IMG/VR virus record: IMGVR_UViG_3300025102_000264
Location: 1-25,011 of that record
Length of the DNA: 25,011 nucleotides
From: a virus
Strand: one strand, 5' to 3'
The first letter of the stretch is position 1. Each line of letters opens with the position of its first letter. Shown here in pieces: positions 1-24,264 of this stretch. The notes under the pieces are model-generated. The model made no database searches, was not told the DNA's origin, and saw only the letters and a program-made list of their open reading frames with translations. The position numbers were made by a program, and so were the translations under genes.

Positions 1-395
1 CCAAGAATTCTGTCCATTTTTTCTGGGTCGTAAACAACCTCGCAAGAGATCCGCTCGCTTGTGTCTCCGAAATCCGCAACAGAAGTAGCGTTGATAGAAA
101 TGATTCTAGACACATCGAATGGCTTCAGAAAAAGGCCATCACCATCAATAGAGGCTTTTCTTAAGAAGAAAGCCAAATCCTCTTCTTTCTGCTTGCGAAC
201 AGACTTATCTCTACCAGGATCAAAGTTTTGCCTGCTAAGTCTCTTAGCGTCAACCAACTCAGAGAATATCTCGTTGTAGACATTCATTTGAGCAAGGGCA
301 GCAAAGCTGTTGAACACCTGCGGGGTGACAAAGCCCTTCTGCTCTTTGTTGGCTAAGTCCTTAAGAGCGGTATATACTTGCAATACGCTAACCAT
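1..395 (-). CDS. Phage protein of unknown function, N-terminal part
   Basis: An open frame begins at ATG 395 and runs off the window at position 1, giving 131 visible residues (start MVSVLQVYTALKDLANKEQK). The start is chosen because a TATATTTG element ends 4 nt upstream of it and the preceding gene ends just before. The visible part is mostly helical in character, with a charged stretch around DPGRDKSVRKQKEEDLAFFL. I recognise the style of this protein from uncultured marine phage genomes, where it lies near head and tail genes, but I know no function. Its position downstream of capsid and decoration genes suggests a virion or connector component. The C-terminus is missing, so length cannot be compared with a family. 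Confidence 0.85.
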   Translation of the reverse strand, partial: MVSVLQVYTALKDLANKEQKGFVTPQVFNSFAALAQMNVYNEIFSELVDAKRLSRQNFDPGRDKSVRKQKEEDLAFFLRKASIDGDGLFLKPFDVSRIISINATSVADFGDTSERISCEVVYDPEKMDRIL

Positions 396-399
396 AAAG

Positions 400-407
400 C
401 AAATATA
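400..407 (-). promoter_or_regulatory. Bacteroidota -7 promoter element TATATTTG
   Basis: TATATTTG on the minus strand matches the TAnnTTTG consensus and is 4 nt from the ATG at 395. It follows a T-rich tract from the end of the previous gene. No clear -33 TTTG is visible at the usual distance. If it is a promoter, transcription would begin at about the start codon. Confidence 0.6.
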
Positions 408-428
408 CAAAAAGAAAAACCAGCCGTT

Positions 429-2054
429 TTATGCGCTGTATTTGTCGTTAAGCTGAATGGCGATGCTTTTGCAGACGTCTTCGCCAAGGTCCTTGTTTGT
501 AAACCCAAACCTCGCTATCTCAAGCTGGGGAGAGTTTGAAGGGAAAGGAACTGTGATTCCAAGGTTCTGCAACCACAAAACCCCAGAGGTTTCTTCAGTA
601 GGGGCCTGATTCAAAACAATGTCCCCGTTTTTATCATACGCCTTGATTCTGTTATTGATATCCCTTCTAATAACTAAAACAATCAGGTTGTCTTCTGGGC
701 TTTCTTCTTGAGAGCCCTCTCTTATAAATTCAGAGAAGTTTTCTATAGAAGGCCCTCTAAAGCGCTTGTTCATGACAAGGGTGCTGTCTTTGCTCGTAGC
801 AAAAGAAAACTCAAAGTCTGTGTTTTTTGAATCGGACTGAAAGGGAGATGCGTTGCTTCGAAGCGGATCGCTTGCTGTAGCCGCAGTGCTAGAAATACCT
901 GAATAAACTGGGTTTAAAAGGGTTCCGTTTTTTCTTACTAAAACCATGTACACAGTGTGTTCTGCATATGGCTGAGGAGGAGCTGTTGTTAAAGCGGCAG
1001 CAAGACCGTCTGGACCGAAGTTTATTCCAGCTGTATCTACTGTTGCTGAATTGCCAAATAAGCCCCCAGTCAAGGTAAAGGTAACGCTATCGTTAGCGTC
1101 TCCACTATCGAAAACCACGGTAAACTGGTCTCCAGCCTGCAAGTCGGCGCCACCGTAAGAAACATTTAATGAAGTTATGTTTGATCCGCTGTCAGAAGTG
1201 TAGGTAAAGGTTGGAGTAAAGAGTAATGTTGTCGATACGCCCCCCCTGGAAACTCCAACTCCGACCGAAGCCCTGTCTGTCTGATTCGCCTTAATTGCGC
1301 TTCCAGAGGTCAGGGTAACCTTACCAACTAAATTCTGGAGGATAAGAGCGTTGTCTACCGAAAACTTTAGAGTTCTTGTTTTGCAGATGTTGAAGTTCTC
1401 AGAACACCTAACATTAGTGTAAACGAGACTTTTGTAGCTATCAGAGGTCCCTCTGCTCGTAAGTCCAGAAGTAATTGCATTTCCGTCCGTAACAGAATCA
1501 GATAGCTGCTCCGCCCCAATGTCGAACAAGGGCTTGTTCTTTACGTCAAAGAAGTCAATCTGAGTGTTGATGCCTCTGCCCTTGATCGTGTTGCCAACTA
1601 CGGTAGCTGGATCATTGTCTCTTGATATGGCTTCTGTACCTGTAAGGCTTCTTTTTACAGGGAGGGACCTCACTCTGGCGTCAATGACTGGGGTGGCTGT
1701 TTTCTTCCCAAAGGTGTTCTCCTGACCTGTAGCGTCAAACTTCATAACGCTCTTCGTCCCTTCCCTGTTGATAAAGCTGATTACATTCTCCATGAGCTCA
1801 GATTCCTTTCCAGACTCACAAGAAACAAAAACGCTTGTCTTCTCAAAAGACTGACCGTCTACAGTCAGGTTGTTCTCTTCAAAGGGAGAAGCGTCATTGA
1901 AGAAAAAAGTAATACCGCCATCAGTAGCCGCCATGTAAGCAAGGCTTTTAGCGGGTATAGAAACCACGCTAATCCCTTTTCCGCTATCTGAGAACAGAGA
2001 ACCTCCAGAAACAGCGGGATCTTTTCTTTTAAATAAGAAGAACTTTTCAGCCAT
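429..2054 (-). CDS. Probable virion (tail or fibre) protein, 541 aa
   Basis: The protein starts MAEKFFLFKRKDP and has a 541-residue, beta-rich, Ser/Thr/Asp/Gly-rich sequence without signal peptide or membrane segment. The first ~115 residues resemble the whole of the next upstream gene product (2086-2472): both open with MAEK plus an aromatic FLF/YLYF strand, and both contain a helix followed by a beta strand near the end of the domain. The middle (about 120-400) is a string of beta-rich segments. The C-terminal ~130 residues include LVIRRDINNRIKAYDKNGD, which looks like a concanavalin/lectin-type beta-sandwich. Composition, size and place among structural genes suggest a tail or fibre component. 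I do not recognise an exact family. A TATATTTG element 4 nt before the ATG suggests its own promoter. Confidence 0.85.
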   Translation of the reverse strand: MAEKFFLFKRKDPAVSGGSLFSDSGKGISVVSIPAKSLAYMAATDGGITFFFNDASPFEENNLTVDGQSFEKTSVFVSCESGKESELMENVISFINREGTKSVMKFDATGQENTFGKKTATPVIDARVRSLPVKRSLTGTEAISRDNDPATVVGNTIKGRGINTQIDFFDVKNKPLFDIGAEQLSDSVTDGNAITSGLTSRGTSDSYKSLVYTNVRCSENFNICKTRTLKFSVDNALILQNLVGKVTLTSGSAIKANQTDRASVGVGVSRGGVSTTLLFTPTFTYTSDSGSNITSLNVSYGGADLQAGDQFTVVFDSGDANDSVTFTLTGGLFGNSATVDTAGINFGPDGLAAALTTAPPQPYAEHTVYMVLVRKNGTLLNPVYSGISSTAATASDPLRSNASPFQSDSKNTDFEFSFATSKDSTLVMNKRFRGPSIENFSEFIREGSQEESPEDNLIVLVIRRDINNRIKAYDKNGDIVLNQAPTEETSGVLWLQNLGITVPFPSNSPQLEIARFGFTNKDLGEDVCKSIAIQLNDKYSA

Positions 2055-2058
2055 ACAG

Positions 2059-2066
2059 CAAATATA
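2059..2066 (-). promoter_or_regulatory. Bacteroidota -7 promoter element TATATTTG
   Basis: TATATTTG on the minus strand is separated from the ATG at 2054 by only CTGT. It is the same arrangement as upstream of 395, 2472, 9518 and 24252. The 31-bp gap also has a T-rich run, with only a weak 3-bp hairpin over the previous stop codon. Confidence 0.6.
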
Positions 2067-2085
2067 CGATAAACAAAAAGGCTGT

Positions 2086-2472
2086 TTAGCTGGCGTCTAC
2101 AAGAGTAATATCGCCAAGAGAATCTATATCTGGGTGTATGTATTCGACCTCAAAGTCATCCCCAACAACTATAAAGGCTTGGCTACTGTTAGCAAAAGCC
2201 TCACACATCCCCTTCCAGACCTCTTTTGCGTTGTTGTCGGTAGTAATATTTACTGTGATGGTGTCGTAGTTTACGTTTTGCCCAGCCGTATCGTTGTGAA
2301 GTGACTCAAAAATAATAGTGAACAGGTCGTCATCAGCAGTTGCATCGGCGTCACCAAACGTTCCCATCTCAAAGCCCACGAGCTTGCTAAGAGGATAGCA
2401 AACAGAATCCTGAGCCTGGTCGTCATTACCCAAGGTGTTTACGGTTCTAAAATACAAGTACTTCTCGGCCAT
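2086..2472 (-). CDS. Small virion-type protein with MAEK N-terminal domain
   Basis: A frame extends to a TTG at 2478, but the ATG at 2472 is the better start. It gives MAEKYLYFRTVN, matching the N-terminus of the downstream 541-residue protein (MAEKFFLFKRKD), and the upstream TTG belongs to the TATATTTG promoter element. The resulting 128-residue acidic protein has alternating beta strands, a helix (KEVWKGMCEAFANSSQ) and a final strand pair. It appears to be a stand-alone copy of the N-terminal domain of the next gene. No enzymatic motif is visible. A virion role is inferred from context only. Confidence 0.8.
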   Translation of the reverse strand: MAEKYLYFRTVNTLGNDDQAQDSVCYPLSKLVGFEMGTFGDADATADDDLFTIIFESLHNDTAGQNVNYDTITVNITTDNNAKEVWKGMCEAFANSSQAFIVVGDDFEVEYIHPDIDSLGDITLVDAS

Positions 2473-2475
2473 ACG

Positions 2476-2483
2476 CAAATATA
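2476..2483 (-). promoter_or_regulatory. Bacteroidota -7 promoter element TATATTTG
   Basis: TATATTTG lies 3 nt before the preferred ATG at 2472, directly downstream of the terminator hairpin at 2491-2516. This terminator-then-promoter order implies that the next gene is started afresh rather than read through. Confidence 0.6.
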
Positions 2484-2484
2484 C

Positions 2485-2516
2485 GAAAGAAAAAAGCCAC
2501 CCGAAGGTGGCCTTTT
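2485..2516 (-). terminator. Intrinsic terminator, UUCG loop
   Basis: On the minus strand, arms at 2506-2516 and 2491-2501 pair over 11 bp (core GGTGGC/GCCACC, one G-U pair, then A-T pairs) around a TTCG tetraloop at 2502-2505. A run of six T with a further CTTT follows. The hairpin begins just after the TAA of the 294-residue gene (stop at 2518-2520). The G-U pair is only a pair in minus-strand RNA. Confidence 0.85.
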
Positions 2517-2517
2517 C

Positions 2518-3402
2518 TTATGCTAGCTTTGATAGCTGTTGTTCTATGGAGAACACAACTGATGATCCTCGCTCCGTTAGGCAGAAGCGCTGCATCACAT
2601 CCATGGGGTCTTGACCCACAGGGACGGATACGATAAGGCTGTTGCTATCGAACCAGTAAACACCGTCTTCTTTCATTCTGATGATCTGGTAGTCCTTGGC
2701 CTGAACGATAGCTGAGCGCACGGCTACTTGCGGTGAGTCAAACGCTTCGATAAAGGCTTGAGGGTTCTTCTTGGCGATACGCAACAAGTTGTATCGGATA
2801 TCAGATACAGACGAGTCAATACCAATATTGAAGAACAAGGCAATCGGGAGCAAGTCCTGGATGTCCTTGTCTCTTACCATAGCGATAGCATCTGTCTGCA
2901 AGAACTCCTTCTTGAGCTCATCTTCTGCGTCTTTCTTCTTGTTTACTTCTCTGAAGATACCACCGCCGTTGGCAGCGTTTCCAGGGTGGCGCTCCATAAA
3001 CTCTCGCAGGTTCGGCTTGTCCTTTGGCACAAACAAACGCTTCTCTCTAAAAATAACAGACTTGCGTGTTGCTCTTTCACCCTGTTCGTCGGTCCAGATA
3101 GATGGCTCGTTAGGGCAGTAGCGGATCTCTCGAACTGTATTTTTCCCCTCGTCGTAGACTGTTACTCCTTTCTGAGGGAGCATAAACACAATACCTCCAC
3201 CCTTGATCACCTCGTACTCCTTGTGCTGCTGTACTTTTTCTTTTCTCTTGATGAAGTTCTTCTTGATCGGGGCATCGTCAAGCTCACCGCGAATACTTGT
3301 TCCCTTGAACTTCTCTAGCCTTTCTGGTTGAACTTCAACCTGCTTGGGCTTCTCCTGGGTTTTTTTAGGTCGCCCAGGCGACTTCTTAGTTTGTGTAGTC
3401 AT
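2518..3402 (-). CDS. Conserved-type phage protein, probable virion or connector role
   Basis: This 294-residue protein starts MTTQTKKSPGRPKKTQ. The Lys-rich, proline-containing N-terminus includes SPGRPKK, resembling an AT-hook (GRP core), and is probably disordered to about residue 60. The rest is a mixed alpha/beta domain with no enzyme motif that I can identify. A glycine-rich link (NAANGGG) occurs near residue 140, and the C-terminal part contains YQIIRMKEDGVYWFDSNSLI. The gene is bounded by two strong terminators and has its own TATATTTG element 20 nt before ATG, so it seems to be a single-gene transcription unit. The basic tail may contact DNA. A head-completion or internal head role is possible, but nothing in the sequence proves it. 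Confidence 0.85.
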   Translation of the reverse strand: MTTQTKKSPGRPKKTQEKPKQVEVQPERLEKFKGTSIRGELDDAPIKKNFIKRKEKVQQHKEYEVIKGGGIVFMLPQKGVTVYDEGKNTVREIRYCPNEPSIWTDEQGERATRKSVIFREKRLFVPKDKPNLREFMERHPGNAANGGGIFREVNKKKDAEDELKKEFLQTDAIAMVRDKDIQDLLPIALFFNIGIDSSVSDIRYNLLRIAKKNPQAFIEAFDSPQVAVRSAIVQAKDYQIIRMKEDGVYWFDSNSLIVSVPVGQDPMDVMQRFCLTERGSSVVFSIEQQLSKLA

Positions 3403-3422
3403 ATTAAATTGAATTAGTGATA

Positions 3423-3430
3423 CAAATATA
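3423..3430 (-). promoter_or_regulatory. Bacteroidota -7 promoter element TATATTTG
   Basis: TATATTTG on the minus strand ends 20 nt before the ATG at 3402 and begins immediately after the T tract of the terminator at 3432-3461. Unlike the N3-4 group, this spacing leaves a short untranslated AT-rich leader. Confidence 0.65.
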
Positions 3431-3431
3431 G

Positions 3432-3461
3432 TAAAAAAGAAAAAGGCCCCGAAGGGCCTTT
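3432..3461 (-). terminator. Intrinsic terminator, UUCG loop
   Basis: On the minus strand AAAGGCCC and GGGCCTTT (3454-3461 and 3442-3449) form an 8-bp stem around TTCG, followed by TTCTTTTTT. It lies about 20 bp downstream of the stop of the gene at 3483-3860 and touches the next promoter element. Confidence 0.9.
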
Positions 3462-3482
3462 CTCATAGTCTGTAAGAAGCTA

Positions 3483-3860
3483 TTAAGCGAGTACTGGATA
3501 TTCAGCTACAGCTCCTGCGGCGGCAGCTGCTCCAGACGCTCTGCTGATAACAGCCCATCCGTCAGTTGTCCACACACATGTGAAAGATTCTCCGATGTTA
3601 GTCGTTGCAATCGTAGAGTATGCACCAGCAGTAGTAGCTGGAGTCAATGTTACCGTATTTGCAGTACTAGAAATGAAGATCTTAACTTGACCAATAGCCT
3701 CACCATCAGCCAAGGTTACACCTTCGTTACCATCGTGGTTGAAGATAGTAATAGGCGTGGTTACACTACAGGCTGCGGCGTCCGTGTCAACGACCTCTGA
3801 GTCGTAAACAAGACCACCAGCTCTCACCTTGGAGGCAAGTAATACATCAAAATGTCCCAT
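3483..3860 (-). CDS. Probable small virion or decoration protein
   Basis: The frame remains open to an ATG at 3932, but that upstream part crosses a strong terminator hairpin (3903-3924). The ATG at 3860 (MGHFDVLLASKVRAGG) is therefore the better start and gives 125 residues. The protein is small, beta-rich and Thr/Ala/Val-rich. It ends in an alanine-rich segment (GAAAAAGAVAEYPVLA). There are no transmembrane or enzymatic features. Such proteins next to capsid genes are typically capsid decoration or minor virion proteins. That role is inferred from position and composition. The gene stands alone between two terminators. Confidence 0.8.
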   Translation of the reverse strand: MGHFDVLLASKVRAGGLVYDSEVVDTDAAACSVTTPITIFNHDGNEGVTLADGEAIGQVKIFISSTANTVTLTPATTAGAYSTIATTNIGESFTCVWTTDGWAVISRASGAAAAAGAVAEYPVLA

Positions 3861-3875
3861 TTTATAAAAAGTTTT

Positions 3876-3924
3876 TTCGTTTAAAAATAAAAGAAAGCAA
3901 AGGGGCGGGGCCGAAGCCCCACCC
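3876..3924 (-). terminator. Strong intrinsic terminator, UUCG loop, after capsid operon
   Basis: Minus-strand arms GGGTGGGGC (3916-3924) and GCCCCGCCC (3903-3911) form a 9-bp stem around TTCG at 3912-3915. They are followed by TTTGCTTTCTTTTATTTTT. A T-G pair replaces a Watson-Crick pair, so the hairpin is better on the minus strand than the plus. It begins 7 bp after the stop of the gene at 3932-4366. Confidence 0.92.
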
Positions 3925-3931
3925 ATTCGCA

Positions 3932-4366
3932 TTAGTCAAAGACTCTAAATGCAATAGTGAACTCAATCTTACCGTTTCCAGTAGCAGTTAGAGTATGATT
4001 TGCATTCAATGTAATGTGCAGCTCTCTTTCGTCTGTGGTCATGGTTCCAGCAACCGCAGAAACAGCGTTTTCAACTGTCCCTGACGCCACCTTATTGGCA
4101 GCGAGCGTTGTTGCTCCATTCAACAGATTAAAGAATGCACAAACTTCTGCACCATCTTCAGCCGTTCCGCACTTAGCTTTCAATACCGCAGACGCATTGT
4201 CAAAAACAATCTGATCGAGGTTTCTGGCAATAACTGCGTCAACTGTGCTATTTGCAGGCTGAGTAATCGTGAACTTGGTGTCTCCATCAGAAGTAACCGC
4301 ATCAGATACGATAAGTCTTCTTGATGTAACAATTGACCCTGGGGTCGCGTGTCTAAAAGTTGCCAT
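3932..4366 (-). CDS. Probable head decoration or minor capsid protein
   Basis: A 144-residue protein starting MATFRHATPGSIVTSRRL lies directly downstream of the major capsid gene. It is beta-rich with many Thr/Ala/Val residues, has two cysteines around residues 67-76, and ends in beta strands (KIEFTIAFRVFD). It has no signal peptide or membrane helix. Position after the capsid protein and before a strong terminator suggests it is made together with the capsid in large amount, as expected for a decoration protein. The assignment is contextual. No specific family is recognised. The leader is AT-rich and lacks a Shine-Dalgarno sequence. Confidence 0.82.
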   Translation of the reverse strand: MATFRHATPGSIVTSRRLIVSDAVTSDGDTKFTITQPANSTVDAVIARNLDQIVFDNASAVLKAKCGTAEDGAEVCAFFNLLNGATTLAANKVASGTVENAVSAVAGTMTTDERELHITLNANHTLTATGNGKIEFTIAFRVFD

Positions 4367-4380
4367 AATAATCTAGTTTT

Positions 4381-4411
4381 TAATAGTTAAACATTAAGAA
4401 CAAGACTATTA
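4381..4411 (-). repeat. AT-rich inverted repeat between capsid and next gene
   Basis: Minus-strand TAATAGT (4405-4411, overlapping the capsid stop codon) can pair with ACTATTA (4381-4387) across a 17-nt loop, followed by five A. It could stabilise the capsid mRNA 3' end or act as a weak attenuator. It lacks a GC-rich stem and a T tract, so it is not called a terminator. Confidence 0.3.
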
Positions 4412-5860
4412 GGCTCCCTTGATCAATACGTGCTGGTTTGCAGCGCGAACGCAAAGAGCAATCTCAGATCTGTAGTGGAATACAGCCTGGTCTGTTCCAG
4501 CATCGCCGTTATTGTTGTGACCCAATACACCGCCACCAGTTACCCAGTGCTCCATTTCACGAGAGTATCCGTTTGCCTCCTTGTAGTGCATAGACAAAGC
4601 AGGTACAGATGCACCGCTTCGTGCGTCAGCTACAGTAGCCAAAGGAACCATAACACCTTGAATGAAGTTAGCGTCAACAGCACCCAACATAGTTGGATCG
4701 TTCAACAACCTCCAGTCGTGCTTGTGGAAAGTGTAACCACCGCGAGTAAAGCTCTTGAATCCGAGCTGTACCGCCATGTCAGCGTTGTTCTGGAATGCAC
4801 CGAACTGACCTGGGAGGCCAGCAGTAACGCCAGTAGCGATACCAGCTGCGAGCATGTCATCAATAGCCAAGTCCTGCTTTCTGTTTACGTACATAGCGTA
4901 CTCAGAAGGAGCACCCTGCTTGTCAAGCTCGATGATGATATCGTCAAACTCAGAGAAGCTGTCGAGTGGGTTGGCGGAAGCGCCTGATACGTTAATACCT
5001 CTGTTTTCGATTGCAGAGAAGTAACCCTCAGAACCAGCGAAGTTGTTTCCGTCAATAGCGTAAGCATTGCTTACCTTCTCGCCGAACAACATCATCAATT
5101 CACGACGGTCTTCGAAGCGCTTACGTGCTTCGGCCTCGCCGTACATGAACCATCTGAAGTCGCCGTTACCCATGTTTACGTAACCGATGTTTGTCGCTTG
5201 TGAACCGTTTACTTCGTAGCGGTCCTTAACGATCATGTATGGGTTTACGTAACGAACCATACCTGGATCAACAAATCCAGTTGGCTGGTTGGTGCCTTGT
5301 GCGTACAAGTTACCGAGCTGTACGAATGTGCCTCCGTTGCCCAAATTACTAGAAGCGAAGTTTGCACCGTCCAGACGCTTAATCGTAACGTCAGCGCCGC
5401 TCAATGAAGACGAAGAACCACCAGCTGTTACGATTACTCTAGTCCCTGTGGCCGCGTCCATCAAAACGTCGTTTTGCTGAACGTTTGCTTTTACGGCGGC
5501 AGTAGTTACAGTGAGTGTAGGCCCTGTGCCTGAGAGGTCATCCGTGTAAGCCAAAGATCTGTGACGACGACCTTCTTCCCACCATTCAATCTGGTCAGAA
5601 GAACCTCCGTTGTTCACAGCTCCAGTGAGCTTCAAAAATCCTGTCAATCCTTGATCACCGTAAGTCTTCACCAGGTCGGGCATGATGTCCTCCTTGGTCG
5701 CCTTAATGAGATCGTCAATAGTTGTGTAGCTGTCAGGGGTCAGTTTAAAACCTCTCTCCAGCTGGGTAGCTCTTACCTGCTTGGGTGATACCGAAAGCGT
5801 TGCGTCAATCTGTGGAAGATTGCCTGTGCCTGCGGTTCTATCTGTTCCAATAGTAGCCAT
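4409..5860 (-). CDS. Major capsid protein
   Basis: The 483-residue product, starting MATIGTDRTAGTGNLPQ, has the size and layout of an HK97-fold major capsid protein. It has a helical N-arm (about 20-75). A charged segment EWWEEGRRH at 92-100 leads into a Ser/Thr/Gly-rich beta insertion at about 102-190 that may be an extra domain on the capsid surface. A long helix with GEAEARKRFEDRRE follows near 241-254, and the C-terminal P/A-domain-like segment includes AVFHYRSEIALCVRAANQHV. It lies just downstream of an acidic scaffold-like gene and upstream of probable decoration genes, the expected head-gene order. The ATG at 5860 has an AT-rich leader and no Shine-Dalgarno. The alternative (another virion protein) is unlikely given the context. 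Confidence 0.85.
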   Translation of the reverse strand: MATIGTDRTAGTGNLPQIDATLSVSPKQVRATQLERGFKLTPDSYTTIDDLIKATKEDIMPDLVKTYGDQGLTGFLKLTGAVNNGGSSDQIEWWEEGRRHRSLAYTDDLSGTGPTLTVTTAAVKANVQQNDVLMDAATGTRVIVTAGGSSSSLSGADVTIKRLDGANFASSNLGNGGTFVQLGNLYAQGTNQPTGFVDPGMVRYVNPYMIVKDRYEVNGSQATNIGYVNMGNGDFRWFMYGEAEARKRFEDRRELMMLFGEKVSNAYAIDGNNFAGSEGYFSAIENRGINVSGASANPLDSFSEFDDIIIELDKQGAPSEYAMYVNRKQDLAIDDMLAAGIATGVTAGLPGQFGAFQNNADMAVQLGFKSFTRGGYTFHKHDWRLLNDPTMLGAVDANFIQGVMVPLATVADARSGASVPALSMHYKEANGYSREMEHWVTGGGVLGHNNNGDAGTDQAVFHYRSEIALCVRAANQHVLIKGA

Positions 5861-9522: not shown

Positions 9523-9530
9523 CAAAGATA
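9523..9530 (-). promoter_or_regulatory. Bacteroidota -7 promoter element TATCTTTG
   Basis: TATCTTTG is separated by CCTT from the ATG at 9518 and is preceded by a T-rich tract after the stop at 9545. It would start the basic-protein cluster. Confidence 0.55.
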
Positions 9531-19482: not shown

Positions 19483-19559
19483 TGGTACACCCGACAGGAT
19501 TCGAACCTGTGACCGTCTGCTTAGAAGGCAGATGCTCTATCCAGCTGAGCTACGGGTGC
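19483..19559 (-). tRNA. tRNA-Arg (anticodon TCT)
   Basis: A complete cloverleaf on the minus strand. The acceptor GCACCCG pairs with CGGGTGT (one G-T), the D arm is AGCTCAGCTGGATAGAGC, the anticodon arm TCTGC-CTTCTAA-GCAGA gives anticodon TCT, and the T arm contains GGTTCGAATCC. The discriminator A and the 3' CCA are encoded in the DNA. It is 77 nt with CCA. It reads AGA (and AGG by wobble) codons. It lies between a small phage gene and terL, 10 bp from the terL start. Confidence 0.95.
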
Positions 19560-21666: not shown

Positions 21667-21683
21667 TTGTATCAAAGATACAA
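21667..21683. promoter_or_regulatory. 17-bp palindrome, candidate operator between divergent genes
   Basis: TTGTATC-AAA-GATACAA is a perfect inverted repeat with 7-nt arms and a 3-nt centre. It is directly between the only plus-strand gene, which encodes a winged-helix protein, and the minus-strand packaging block. It covers the minus-strand TATCTTTG element completely and touches the plus-strand one. This is the classic position for an autoregulatory operator. Confidence 0.5.
21673..21680 (-). promoter_or_regulatory. Bacteroidota -7 promoter element TATCTTTG for packaging block
   Basis: TATCTTTG on the minus strand is 19 nt before the ATG at 21653. It is embedded in the palindrome at 21667-21683, so a protein bound there would block this promoter. 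Confidence 0.55.
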
Positions 21684-21693
21684 CATAATTGAG

Positions 21694-22113
21694 ATGCCGA
21701 AATCGACAGTGAAAAAAACGCGCATGTTTAGAGATTTCTCTAAGATGCCGTCTAGGTTTGTTAAGCACAACCACTTAAAAAACTTGCGGAGCGCCACGAA
21801 CGAGTTCCTCGAAGTCAACCCAGAACTCACAAAGTCGTACCTGCACCTGCTCTTGTTTGTCTACGACCTAGAGTTCTTTACTATCTCTTGGCTAGCAGAG
21901 AACTACGGGATGAACAGAAAGAACTTGGCGGACAGGATGGTGTACCCGTTAGTTCTTGCAGGGTATCTGTACAAGCATTTCGACAAGCTTACTCCTTCTC
22001 AGAGTCTAGAGGATCACTTGTTCCGTGATGAGACCAAATACAATTACAGAGTTCGCTATGCGCTATCGCAGAAAGGTAGACTAGCGGTACAGCGTTTCTA
22101 CAACTCACTTTAG
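21694..22113 (+). CDS. Winged-helix DNA-binding protein, probable late regulator
   Basis: The frame is open from a TTG at 21667, but that codon lies in the palindrome and the ATG at 21694 (MPKSTVKKTRMFRDF) is preferred. This gives 139 residues. After a basic N-terminus, residues 47-100 have helices and a helix-turn-helix of MarR/winged type (FFTISWLAENYGMNRKNLAD then RMVYPLVLAGYLYKHF). The wing is around NYRVRYALSQKG with a final helix. It is the only plus-strand gene, sits between the fibre block and the packaging block, and converges with the fibre gene with a 4-bp overlap in which TTAG carries both stop codons. It probably regulates its own and the divergent promoter. Confidence 0.75.
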   Translation: MPKSTVKKTRMFRDFSKMPSRFVKHNHLKNLRSATNEFLEVNPELTKSYLHLLLFVYDLEFFTISWLAENYGMNRKNLADRMVYPLVLAGYLYKHFDKLTPSQSLEDHLFRDETKYNYRVRYALSQKGRLAVQRFYNSL

Positions 22114-23105
22114 AAGATTGAGTAGAAGGTGTTGATGTTAGACTGAATGTTGCTTAGGTCTGTAGATCCTTGATTAGCCCAAATAATCAACTCGGAATAT
22201 TTAAGGTTCAGGTCTGATGAGTAGCCTCTACCAATCGTCCTAATATTCAGCTTATAACCATTGGTATTTGACCAGGAGCTATTGCCAGTTCCAGTAAGTT
22301 GCTGACCATTAAACTGCATTTTTTTTGTACTAGACTCAACATATATGTTTAAAAGAGCCATTTCACTCGCTGCAACATCAGCGCTAAAAGCAAAACGTAG
22401 ATTTACGTTTCCAGTATCTGCCTCGTTTGTGTGGCGTAAAGCAAATCGATCTAAGCCACTTCCCGCTTCGGTAGCAAAAAAATTGAGCGCTGCCTGTGTA
22501 TGACCCGTAAAATATTCCCCATTTGTAGTGCCCGACTCTCTTCCTTCTGCTACGATGGAAATCAAGAAAGCATCAGGAGTATTTGATCTCAAGAAAATCT
22601 CGTTTGCTAACTCCATATCATTAGTGTCAAAAGACAGCGTAGGCTTGTTGTTATCGTCTAAAACAAGACCAGAAGAAGCATCATAAATTTTTGGCTGTTT
22701 CGCAGCGTTCGTCGCGGCGGCATCATTTGAGTTGCCGCTTTGATCATACCATGTCATAGCTGTGGCATCCCTAGGAGATCCAAGGCTGTCGGCATCGGTG
22801 TACCCAGAGTCGGCTACAAACTGACCTAAATTAACAGCAGCAGTAGAGCCCTGGTCGGCACCGCTGGTTTCTTCAGGCACATTGGTGACTCTAGAGTCCA
22901 AAGAGATGACTCCGTTTTGATCAAAACTAACGTCCACTTCTACGTTGTCGCCAGACCTTCTAGCCTGAAGTACGGGTCCTGAATAAGAATTAGAAAGCTT
23001 TCTCAAAGAATAAGCTGCTGAAGCTCCTGAATACGTATCAAGAAGCAGTGGGTCAGCAGCGCTGACAAACCCACCTCTGTTTATTGTTGTGCCTAGTCCT
23101 AACAT
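22110..23105 (-). CDS. Tail-fibre or receptor-binding-type protein, arabinofuranosidase-B-like fold, copy 2
   Basis: A 331-residue protein that begins MLGLGTTINRGGFVSAADPL and ends SNIQSNINTFYSIF, almost as its upstream neighbour does. The N-terminal ~75 residues (SLRKLSNSYSGPVLQARRSG) and the motif TWYDQSGNSNDAA near residue 120 are typical of the arabinofuranosidase-B catalytic-like (LamG/ConA-type) domain found in phage tail proteins. The region after this (about 130-300) differs completely from the neighbour and is the likely binding surface. It probably acts as a fibre tip or surface-polysaccharide binder rather than an active enzyme. Its ATG overlaps the previous stop as TAATG. Confidence 0.8.
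   Translation of the reverse strand: MLGLGTTINRGGFVSAADPLLLDTYSGASAAYSLRKLSNSYSGPVLQARRSGDNVEVDVSFDQNGVISLDSRVTNVPEETSGADQGSTAAVNLGQFVADSGYTDADSLGSPRDATAMTWYDQSGNSNDAAATNAAKQPKIYDASSGLVLDDNNKPTLSFDTNDMELANEIFLRSNTPDAFLISIVAEGRESGTTNGEYFTGHTQAALNFFATEAGSGLDRFALRHTNEADTGNVNLRFAFSADVAASEMALLNIYVESSTKKMQFNGQQLTGTGNSSWSNTNGYKLNIRTIGRGYSSDLNLKYSELIIWANQGSTDLSNIQSNINTFYSIF
23022..23078. repeat. 57-bp exact direct repeat, copy in second fibre gene
   Basis: This 57-bp segment near the 5' end of the second fibre gene is identical to 23948-24004 in the first. It encodes the N-terminal RGGFVSAADPLLLDTYSGA segment. Flanking sequence is diverged. Confidence 0.9.
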
Positions 23106-24031
23106 TAGTAAATAGAGTAGAAAGTGTTGATGTTGGACTCGATGTTTGTGCGGTTGCTGGATTGGTCGCTGTTATAATAAATTATCTCTTGGAAAACACC
23201 CGTCATATGTCCTGTACCTCCATCCCTGCGGCTTCCGATAAATATTTGAGAGGAATTTGCAGCATCTCCGCTGTTGCCTGGTCCGTTAGTCGATCCATTT
23301 AATTCAGAAAAGCTGTTTGTTGTGTCGGCCAAAACAAAACCGAGGTTCTGTTGATTAAGGGCCTTCGAGGTGGTACTAACAGCTTGGCTTACATAAACTT
23401 GGAAAGAATTCCCACTAGTTACGTTTCCGATGGCTAACCTGTTAGGGGATATTGCATCCAGAATGTAAGACGTGGCACTTCTTTTATATACTAAGAAAAC
23501 GGTCACAGCGTTTTGAAGTGATACCGATCCGCTCATAAAATCGTCCGTACCATCAAATTGCATTGCAGGATTTCCGTTTTCGGTCACTAATACGCCGCTT
23601 GAAACAATGGTTGGCTGAGAGCCCGCCGTGTTTTGAGTGGCGCCGTTAGAATTTCCAGACTGATCATACCAACGCTGGACCAGCGCAGAATCAGTAGACC
23701 CCAGGCTGTCTGCATCTGTGTAGCTGGCGTTAGCCACAAACTCACCAAGAGTTGTTGCAGAAGTAGAGTCAGGGTCGGGGCTAGTCCCTGAAGTCTCCTC
23801 TGTCACATTGGTAACAGCGGAGTTCAGAGAAACAACACCGTTATCATCGAAGCTTACGTCTACTTCTACGTTGTCGCTTGCCCTTCTGATTTGAAGTGCG
23901 GGGCCTGAATAAGTGCTTGATAGCTTTCTCAAAGAGAATGCAGCGGCAGCTCCTGAATACGTATCAAGAAGCAGTGGGTCAGCAGCGCTGACAAACCCAC
24001 CTCTATTGACTGCTGTCCCCAACCCTAACAT
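23105..24031 (-). CDS. Tail-fibre or receptor-binding-type protein, arabinofuranosidase-B-like fold, copy 1
   Basis: A 308-residue paralogue of the next gene, starting MLGLGTAVNRGGFVSAADPL. It has the same N-terminal domain (FSLRKLSSTYSGPALQIRRA), a matching RWYDQSGNSNGATQ motif, then a variable LamG-like part (NPAMQFDGTDDFMSGSVSLQ, VTVFLVYKR) and the same C-terminal SNRTNIESNINTFYSIY end. Conserved ends with a diverged middle are typical of modular receptor-binding proteins. It is coupled to both neighbours by TAATG overlaps. Catalysis on arabinose-containing polysaccharide is not supported by any residue I can identify. Confidence 0.8.
   Translation of the reverse strand: MLGLGTAVNRGGFVSAADPLLLDTYSGAAAAFSLRKLSSTYSGPALQIRRASDNVEVDVSFDDNGVVSLNSAVTNVTEETSGTSPDPDSTSATTLGEFVANASYTDADSLGSTDSALVQRWYDQSGNSNGATQNTAGSQPTIVSSGVLVTENGNPAMQFDGTDDFMSGSVSLQNAVTVFLVYKRSATSYILDAISPNRLAIGNVTSGNSFQVYVSQAVSTTSKALNQQNLGFVLADTTNSFSELNGSTNGPGNSGDAANSSQIFIGSRRDGGTGHMTGVFQEIIYYNSDQSSNRTNIESNINTFYSIY
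23948..24004. repeat. 57-bp exact direct repeat, copy in first fibre gene
   Basis: Identical to 23022-23078 in the second fibre gene, 926 bp apart. Recombination between the copies would delete exactly one gene length and fuse the two fibre genes. Confidence 0.9.
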
Positions 24032-24256: not shown

Positions 24257-24264
24257 CAAAGATA
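24257..24264 (-). promoter_or_regulatory. Bacteroidota -7 promoter element TATCTTTG
   Basis: TATCTTTG is separated from the ATG at 24252 by TTGT, the same N4 spacing as at 395, 2054 and 9518. It would drive the three-gene fibre operon. Confidence 0.55.

Follow-up and report, generated by a model that had tools for sequence, protein, structure and literature searches.

Candidate terminator-promoter units, most with a predicted leaderless restart, between the capsid and tail/neck genes of a podophage fragment

Comparison with described phage and bacterial systems

Several described systems resemble, each in part, a set of short intergenic gaps in a linear IMG/VR virus contig of 25,011 bases (IMGVR_UViG_3300025102_000264; the whole stretch that was analysed is called the window), in which a UUCG-loop hairpin with a T tract is followed at once by a promoter-like TAnnTTTG box. 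The window comes from a podophage whose relatives include Elemovirus and Cellulophaga phage phi38:1. In phage T7, the T-phi terminator lies directly after major capsid gene 10 and parts it from the tail genes (PMC5592923), and a predicted terminator likewise stands directly after the capsid gene in elemo, phi38:1, Panino, Manatee and crAss001, and after the capsid/cement gene pair in the window. However, T7 has a single such terminator and reaches genes 11-12 solely by read-through, whereas several units occur here, each with a host-type promoter. T7 also has its own RNA polymerase, whereas the box found here is of a host sigma type, and no polymerase gene was identified in the window, where no dedicated test for one was made. 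A second likeness is to phage morons, which are independently expressed genes inserted in a late operon by comparison with relatives (definition in PMC2629481). The accessory genes of the window are inserted between the capsid, phrog_34748 and phrog_14543 genes, which are direct neighbours in elemo and phi38:1; they have their own predicted promoter and terminator, and their products are probably virion proteins. Morons are non-morphogenetic, whereas here several genes, probably virion genes, stand in a row; in addition, terminator and promoter are fused here in one gap of about 40-80 nucleotides (nt), and most starts are predicted to be leaderless. The boxes share with Bacteroidota sigma-ABfr promoters the -7 TAnnTTTG box, the exclusion of G at its free positions and a T-rich block just upstream, but this block is here the tail of a terminator-like hairpin, with a GC stem around -25 to -40. 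With the leaderless mRNAs of Bacteroidota they would share a start codon at the 5' end, as predicted here. We found no description of such units in Bacteroidota phages in the literature, in which mainly open-access journals were searched.

We consider it likely that these gaps are terminator-promoter units, most of them with a leaderless restart, placed between a head operon and a tail/neck operon. The intrinsic terminator would end the transcript of the preceding gene, and its T tract would lead into a host sigma-ABfr promoter (-7 TAHHTTTG) that restarts transcription. In most units the box lies 4 nt before the ATG, so that transcription would start on the A of the ATG and the mRNA would lack a leader; in the remaining units, a distance of 15-26 nt between box and ATG would leave a short A-rich leader. 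The capsid gene and the probable cement gene would close the head operon, and the phrog_14543 gene would be the first of the tail/neck operon. The units probably uncouple the very abundant capsid products from the low-copy neck and tail products, and probably also allow accessory virion genes to be inserted or reordered as self-contained modules. The hairpins, the boxes, their spacing, covariation and conservation, the map position and the reshuffling of genes were read directly from the DNA; from these we infer termination, the position of the transcription start, leaderless translation and expression levels. What is new here is the predicted collapse of the leader, with the promoter pressed against the ATG; an earlier note on this DNA did not mention that the box abuts the ATG at a constant 4 nt, from which leaderless mRNAs are predicted.

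Hairpins and boxes in the window and its relatives

All units of the window lie on the minus strand, and two of them are complete. Before the gene starting at 3402, a UUCG terminator-like hairpin at 3464-3439 (-19.0 kcal/mol, z = -5.7) is followed by a TATATTTG -7 box at 3430-3423, 20 nt before the ATG, and this promoter is of the leadered type. Before the gene starting at 2472, a second UUCG hairpin at 2517-2490 (-17.6 kcal/mol, z = -4.9) is followed by a TATATTTG box at 2483-2476, 3 nt before the ATG and predicted to be leaderless. Both hairpins have the GC-rich stem and T tract of an intrinsic terminator. A third UUCG hairpin with a T-rich tail lies behind the capsid/cement pair at 3924-3903 (-27.1 kcal/mol, z = -5.2), and no recognisable promoter follows it; the closest relative (L029) shares this hairpin. 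In RNA folding, no shuffled sequence folded as well as any of these three. The gaps before 2054 and 395 hold TATATTTG boxes at 2066-2059 and 407-400, each 4 nt before the ATG and predicted to be leaderless, the latter being the predicted promoter of the tail/neck operon. No significant hairpin was found in these two gaps (z -0.33 and -1.75), with only a weak one before 395. The window thus has two complete gaps (before 3402 and 2472), two promoter-only gaps (2054 and 395) and one hairpin-only gap (3860). The boxes before the four interval genes agree with the sigma-ABfr -7 consensus TAHHTTTG.

The UUCG hairpins and TATATTTG boxes listed in the earlier note, including a third hairpin within 3876-3924, are present where it had placed them, as are the T-rich runs with TATATTTG before 2054 and 395, where a significant hairpin is lacking. 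Its statement that nearly every gene is separately terminated and restarted was too strong for the window. Over the whole window, TAnnTTTG is modestly enriched (26 against 16.9 +/- 3.8 expected), and the strength of the case lies in the position and conservation of the boxes, not in this count. Sigma-70 promoters were also considered and rejected, as the scan of the window gave no excess (26 vs 23.1) and this promoter type is wrong for the phylum.

For comparison, 80 loci were taken from 242 capsid relatives in IMG/VR. Distance and UUCG hairpin counts cover about 82 related loci and per-gene counts cover 46 distinct loci; the starts of open reading frames (ORFs) come from a simple gene caller that uses ATG only, and the loci share ancestry, so that the counts are not independent. 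Judged by terminase and capsid protein, the cultured relatives are the Elemovirus Flavobacterium phages, Cellulophaga phages phi38:1 and Calle, and Maribacter phage Panino, and the Manatee Spring uncultured podovirus is also among the relatives. Since these relatives infect flavobacteria, the host of the window phage is very probably a flavobacterium.

UUCG hairpins occur 104 times on the sense strand of these loci and 0 times on the other strand. A T tract follows 69 of the 104, and 60 of these 69 have a TAHHTTTG within 70 nt, nearly all after 5-9 nt. When the search was widened to any loop, with G-U pairs allowed in the stem, 57 of the 126 leaderless promoters and 35 of the 149 leadered ones had a hairpin in the 45 nt upstream, against expectations of 2 and 1 from shuffled flanks and 3.6 and 3.9 from random positions. 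In nearly all of them the distance from the end of the GC core to the box is 12-14 nt. The loops differ (UUCG, GAAA, UUAG, UACG and others), and the stems covary, with a score of 0.926 against 0.251 for shuffled sequences and 64 two-sided changes against 19.5. Because the stems vary with compensation and the loops vary as well, it is the structure and not the sequence that is kept. One caveat counts against us here: 99% of the cells in the covariation table are paired, which is so by construction because the rows were preselected as hairpins, whereas the range of different stems at a single place does not come from this preselection. The closest relative (L029:13598-13973) carries the same hairpin as the window (GGCCACC-UUCG-GGUGGC); after it come TATATTTA, in which the -7 box is broken, and a gene that differs from the window gene at 2086-2472 (26% identity). 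The terminator appears to be kept there, while promoter and gene are changed.

Conservation of the unit is strong. The interval from just behind the capsid gene to the phrog_14543 gene holds 245 genes in the 46 loci, of which 112 have a TAHHTTTG promoter, 91 a terminator and 75 both, in agreement with the conservation in relatives that the earlier note had proposed as a check. Its central claims, that a terminator is followed at once by a Bacteroidota-type promoter and that the T tract serves as the AT-rich flank of this promoter, are supported by the relatives. Within the same 46 loci, 79 of the 82 UUCG hairpins fall inside the interval, 1 upstream and 2 downstream. Downstream of the phrog_14543 gene we found 1 gene-linked promoter in 261 kb, and this gene thus seems to be the first of a long tail/neck operon; 49 of its 52 homologues have a promoter 4-6 nt before the ATG. 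The earlier note had assigned the units to the distal end of the late block, which is wrong, because they occupy the interval that separates the capsid gene from the tail/neck operon, and position 1 is a cut end of the contig. In whole contigs of 16 relatives, TATATTTGNNNNATG occurs in 43 copies, on a single strand in each contig, compared with 1 for the reversed-pattern control.

A simpler arrangement is seen where the interval is short. Both ancestral gaps of elemo and Manatee contain a hairpin, a T tract and TATCTTTG in leadered form, phi38:1 has a hairpin in both gaps and TATATTTG in the second, and a hairpin also follows the capsid gene in Panino; in crAss001 this place holds a strong hairpin with a T tract. 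A distant relative (L085) likewise has the short form, with 934 nt from capsid to phrog_14543 gene and leadered units in both gaps. The leadered unit of the cultured relatives is a simpler form. In the clade of the window, the interval measures about 2.6-6.4 kb and contains accessory genes that stand in varying order with respect to the phrog_34748 gene. Panino has five small ORFs between its phrog_34748 and phrog_14543 genes (L089:16345-17448), a gap that is the second of the two holding accessory genes in the clade of the window. For a large group of marine phages that are uncultivated, the units provide a clear sequence rule by which transcription units and start codons can be annotated, as well as a compact part of about 45 nt with stop and start signals, which could be tested in laboratory Flavobacterium or Bacteroides.

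Box-to-ATG distance and predicted leaderless starts

For every TAnnTTTG in the related loci, we measured how far it lies from the closest ORF start. The distances peak sharply at 4 nt (111 sites), with minor shoulders at 5-7; almost no sites fall at 8-14, and a wide hump follows at 15-22, whereas control motifs and the opposite strand gave a flat distribution. When only distinct sites are counted, 279 promoters remain, with 99 at 4 nt, 126 at 3-7 nt and 149 at 14-30 nt. In mapped promoters of F. johnsoniae, the box has its G at -5, with 4-5 nt between box and transcription start (PMC6847099). Combined with the 4-nt distance, this spacing would place +1 on the A of the ATG, and most interval mRNAs are therefore predicted to be leaderless. 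G was found at the two free positions of TAnnTTTG in 0 of 118 sites at 4 nt, and it is likewise excluded there in mapped F. johnsoniae promoters (PMC6847099).

Leaderless members occur in 15 protein clusters, and a single gene family was ruled out on this ground as the cause of the 4-nt peak. Both leaderless and leadered members are found in 7 of 25 clusters, which indicates that the box shifts relative to the ATG and holds its place relative to the hairpin; it is accordingly no fixed translation signal. The leadered starts have A at -3, -6, -12 and -13 in 63, 51, 51 and 65%, respectively, and resemble the Kozak-like context of F. johnsoniae starts (PMC6847099), while A at -6 and -12 is found in 0% of leaderless starts. 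Interval promoters lie 3-6 nt from the ATG in 69 of 112 cases (62%) and never at 7-14 nt; this share compares with a few per cent in bacteria, namely 5.5% leaderless in F. psychrophilum and 3.7% 5' untranslated regions shorter than 10 nt in B. thetaiotaomicron (PMC9723704, PMC7366714), although these published values were obtained by a different method from the phage distance count. In F. johnsoniae, 87% of predicted leaders are longer than 10 nt (PMC6847099). Because Bacteroidota lack Shine-Dalgarno pairing and leaderless mRNAs are reported to be rare there, the two-peaked distances are natural test material for the choice of start by Bacteroidota ribosomes. 

Several points weigh against terminator-promoter units with leaderless restarts. 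The spacing rule was taken from F. johnsoniae, which may not be the actual host of the window phage. No conserved TTTG (-33 element) was found 18-22 nt upstream of the box in either promoter class, an element likewise not found in F. johnsoniae promoters (PMC6847099), and the AT-rich -28 block of F. johnsoniae is replaced here by the GC stem. In the window itself, two promoter gaps lack a convincing terminator, one hairpin lacks a promoter, and the box ending at 2476 is just 3 nt from its ATG and would need a 3-nt spacing. The promoter-less hairpin at 3924-3903, the 16 similar gaps among relatives and the gaps with a promoter but no hairpin would also suit another explanation, in which the hairpins serve mainly as processing sites, as stabilisers of 3' ends or as weak attenuators within a single long late transcript to which the promoters merely add. 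We think this unlikely, because T tracts follow 69 of the 104 hairpins, the hairpins are confined to the sense strand at a fixed distance before the promoters, and the post-capsid hairpin with its T tract is retained even in crAss001.

Bacteroidota do without Shine-Dalgarno sequences and favour start regions that are rich in A and unstructured (PMC6847099), so that TATATTTG beside the ATG might be an AT-rich, unstructured context for translation initiation and no promoter at all. This is very improbable, as the box fits the sigma consensus including the exclusion of G, keeps its distance constant to the hairpin and not to the ATG, is missing before operon-internal genes, and does not supply the favoured A at -6 and -12. 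We give hardly any credence to a misassignment of the box-adjacent start codons, with the true starts further downstream behind ordinary leaders. The starts were indeed called from ORFs rather than protein data, but conservation reaches to the very beginning of the proteins: alignment to the phrog_14543 profile sets in at position 4 or 5, all members of the accessory family share M1 and K4, and the 15 protein clusters independently show the leaderless spacing. Beyond the terminator-promoter units that we favour, it is conceivable, though rather doubtful, that the phage lineage has shifted much of its late expression and some other expression to leaderless mRNAs as a strategy, with the unit as a portable start module. 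If so, late messages may be read by, for example, ribosomes altered during infection, and the module would let genes insert without any translation signal. Leaders of about 4-10 nt are seemingly excluded, which would then point to two distinct initiation routes on Bacteroidota ribosomes.

Genes of the interval and other features of the window

Nearly all genes of the window are on the minus strand, with a set that includes endolysin, GroES-like, large terminase (phrog_6681), portal (phrog_6547) and fibre-like genes and is completed by a capsid-like protein (phrog_13704) and then the genes of the terminator-promoter interval. The gene of the major capsid-like virion protein (4409..5860) has a TAHHTTTG promoter in 0 of 81 homologues. 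Directly behind it lies a small gene (3932..4366), which has its own promoter in 0 of 17 homologues. The structure model of its product is all-beta with moderate confidence (predicted local distance difference test score, pLDDT, 74), and in the PDB it matches best with capsid chains from Ralstonia phage GP4 and cyanophage Pam1 (E ~1e-3). The capsid-like model and the lack of promoters suggest a cement (decoration) protein made together with the capsid protein. The following gene (3483..3860) is of unassigned function; its start is most likely 3860, because the first in-frame ATG, at 3932, lies upstream of the terminator.

The conserved phrog_34748 gene (2518..3402) belongs to a family that is found behind the capsid gene of elemo, phi38:1 and Panino. 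The accessory gene at 2086..2472, headed by the predicted leaderless unit, has homologues in 16 cassettes of relatives, and a fold search with its protein gave no match, although the model is confident. It is followed by another accessory gene (429..2054), whose order relative to the phrog_34748 gene varies among relatives, and by the phrog_14543 virion protein gene (3..395), which is truncated by the contig end and would open the next operon; the relatives carry on with tail/neck genes beyond this cut end. Outside the interval, predicted leaderless starts with TATCTTTG on the minus strand were found at 9523..9530 and 24257..24264, each 4 nt before an ATG (9518 and 24252).

A Pfam search with ten window proteins gave no match, and a tRNA gene was the sole match both in an Rfam scan and in a nucleotide search against cultured phages. 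This tRNA gene (19486-19559) lies between the terminase gene and the small genes upstream, and shows about 93% identity over 59 nt to the tRNA-Arg of Shewanella phages Thanatos-1/-2, the host of which is from a different phylum. Two adjacent paralogues (22110-23105 and 23105-24031), both phrog_10356-like, closely resemble each other in the N-terminal part (MLGLGT..RGGFVSAADPLLLDTYSGA) and diverge thereafter, as if a virion gene had been duplicated in tandem. A single plus-strand ORF of 148 codons (21667-22113) lies inside the minus-strand block, and the minus-strand gene after it has TATCTTTG 19 nt before its ATG (21653).

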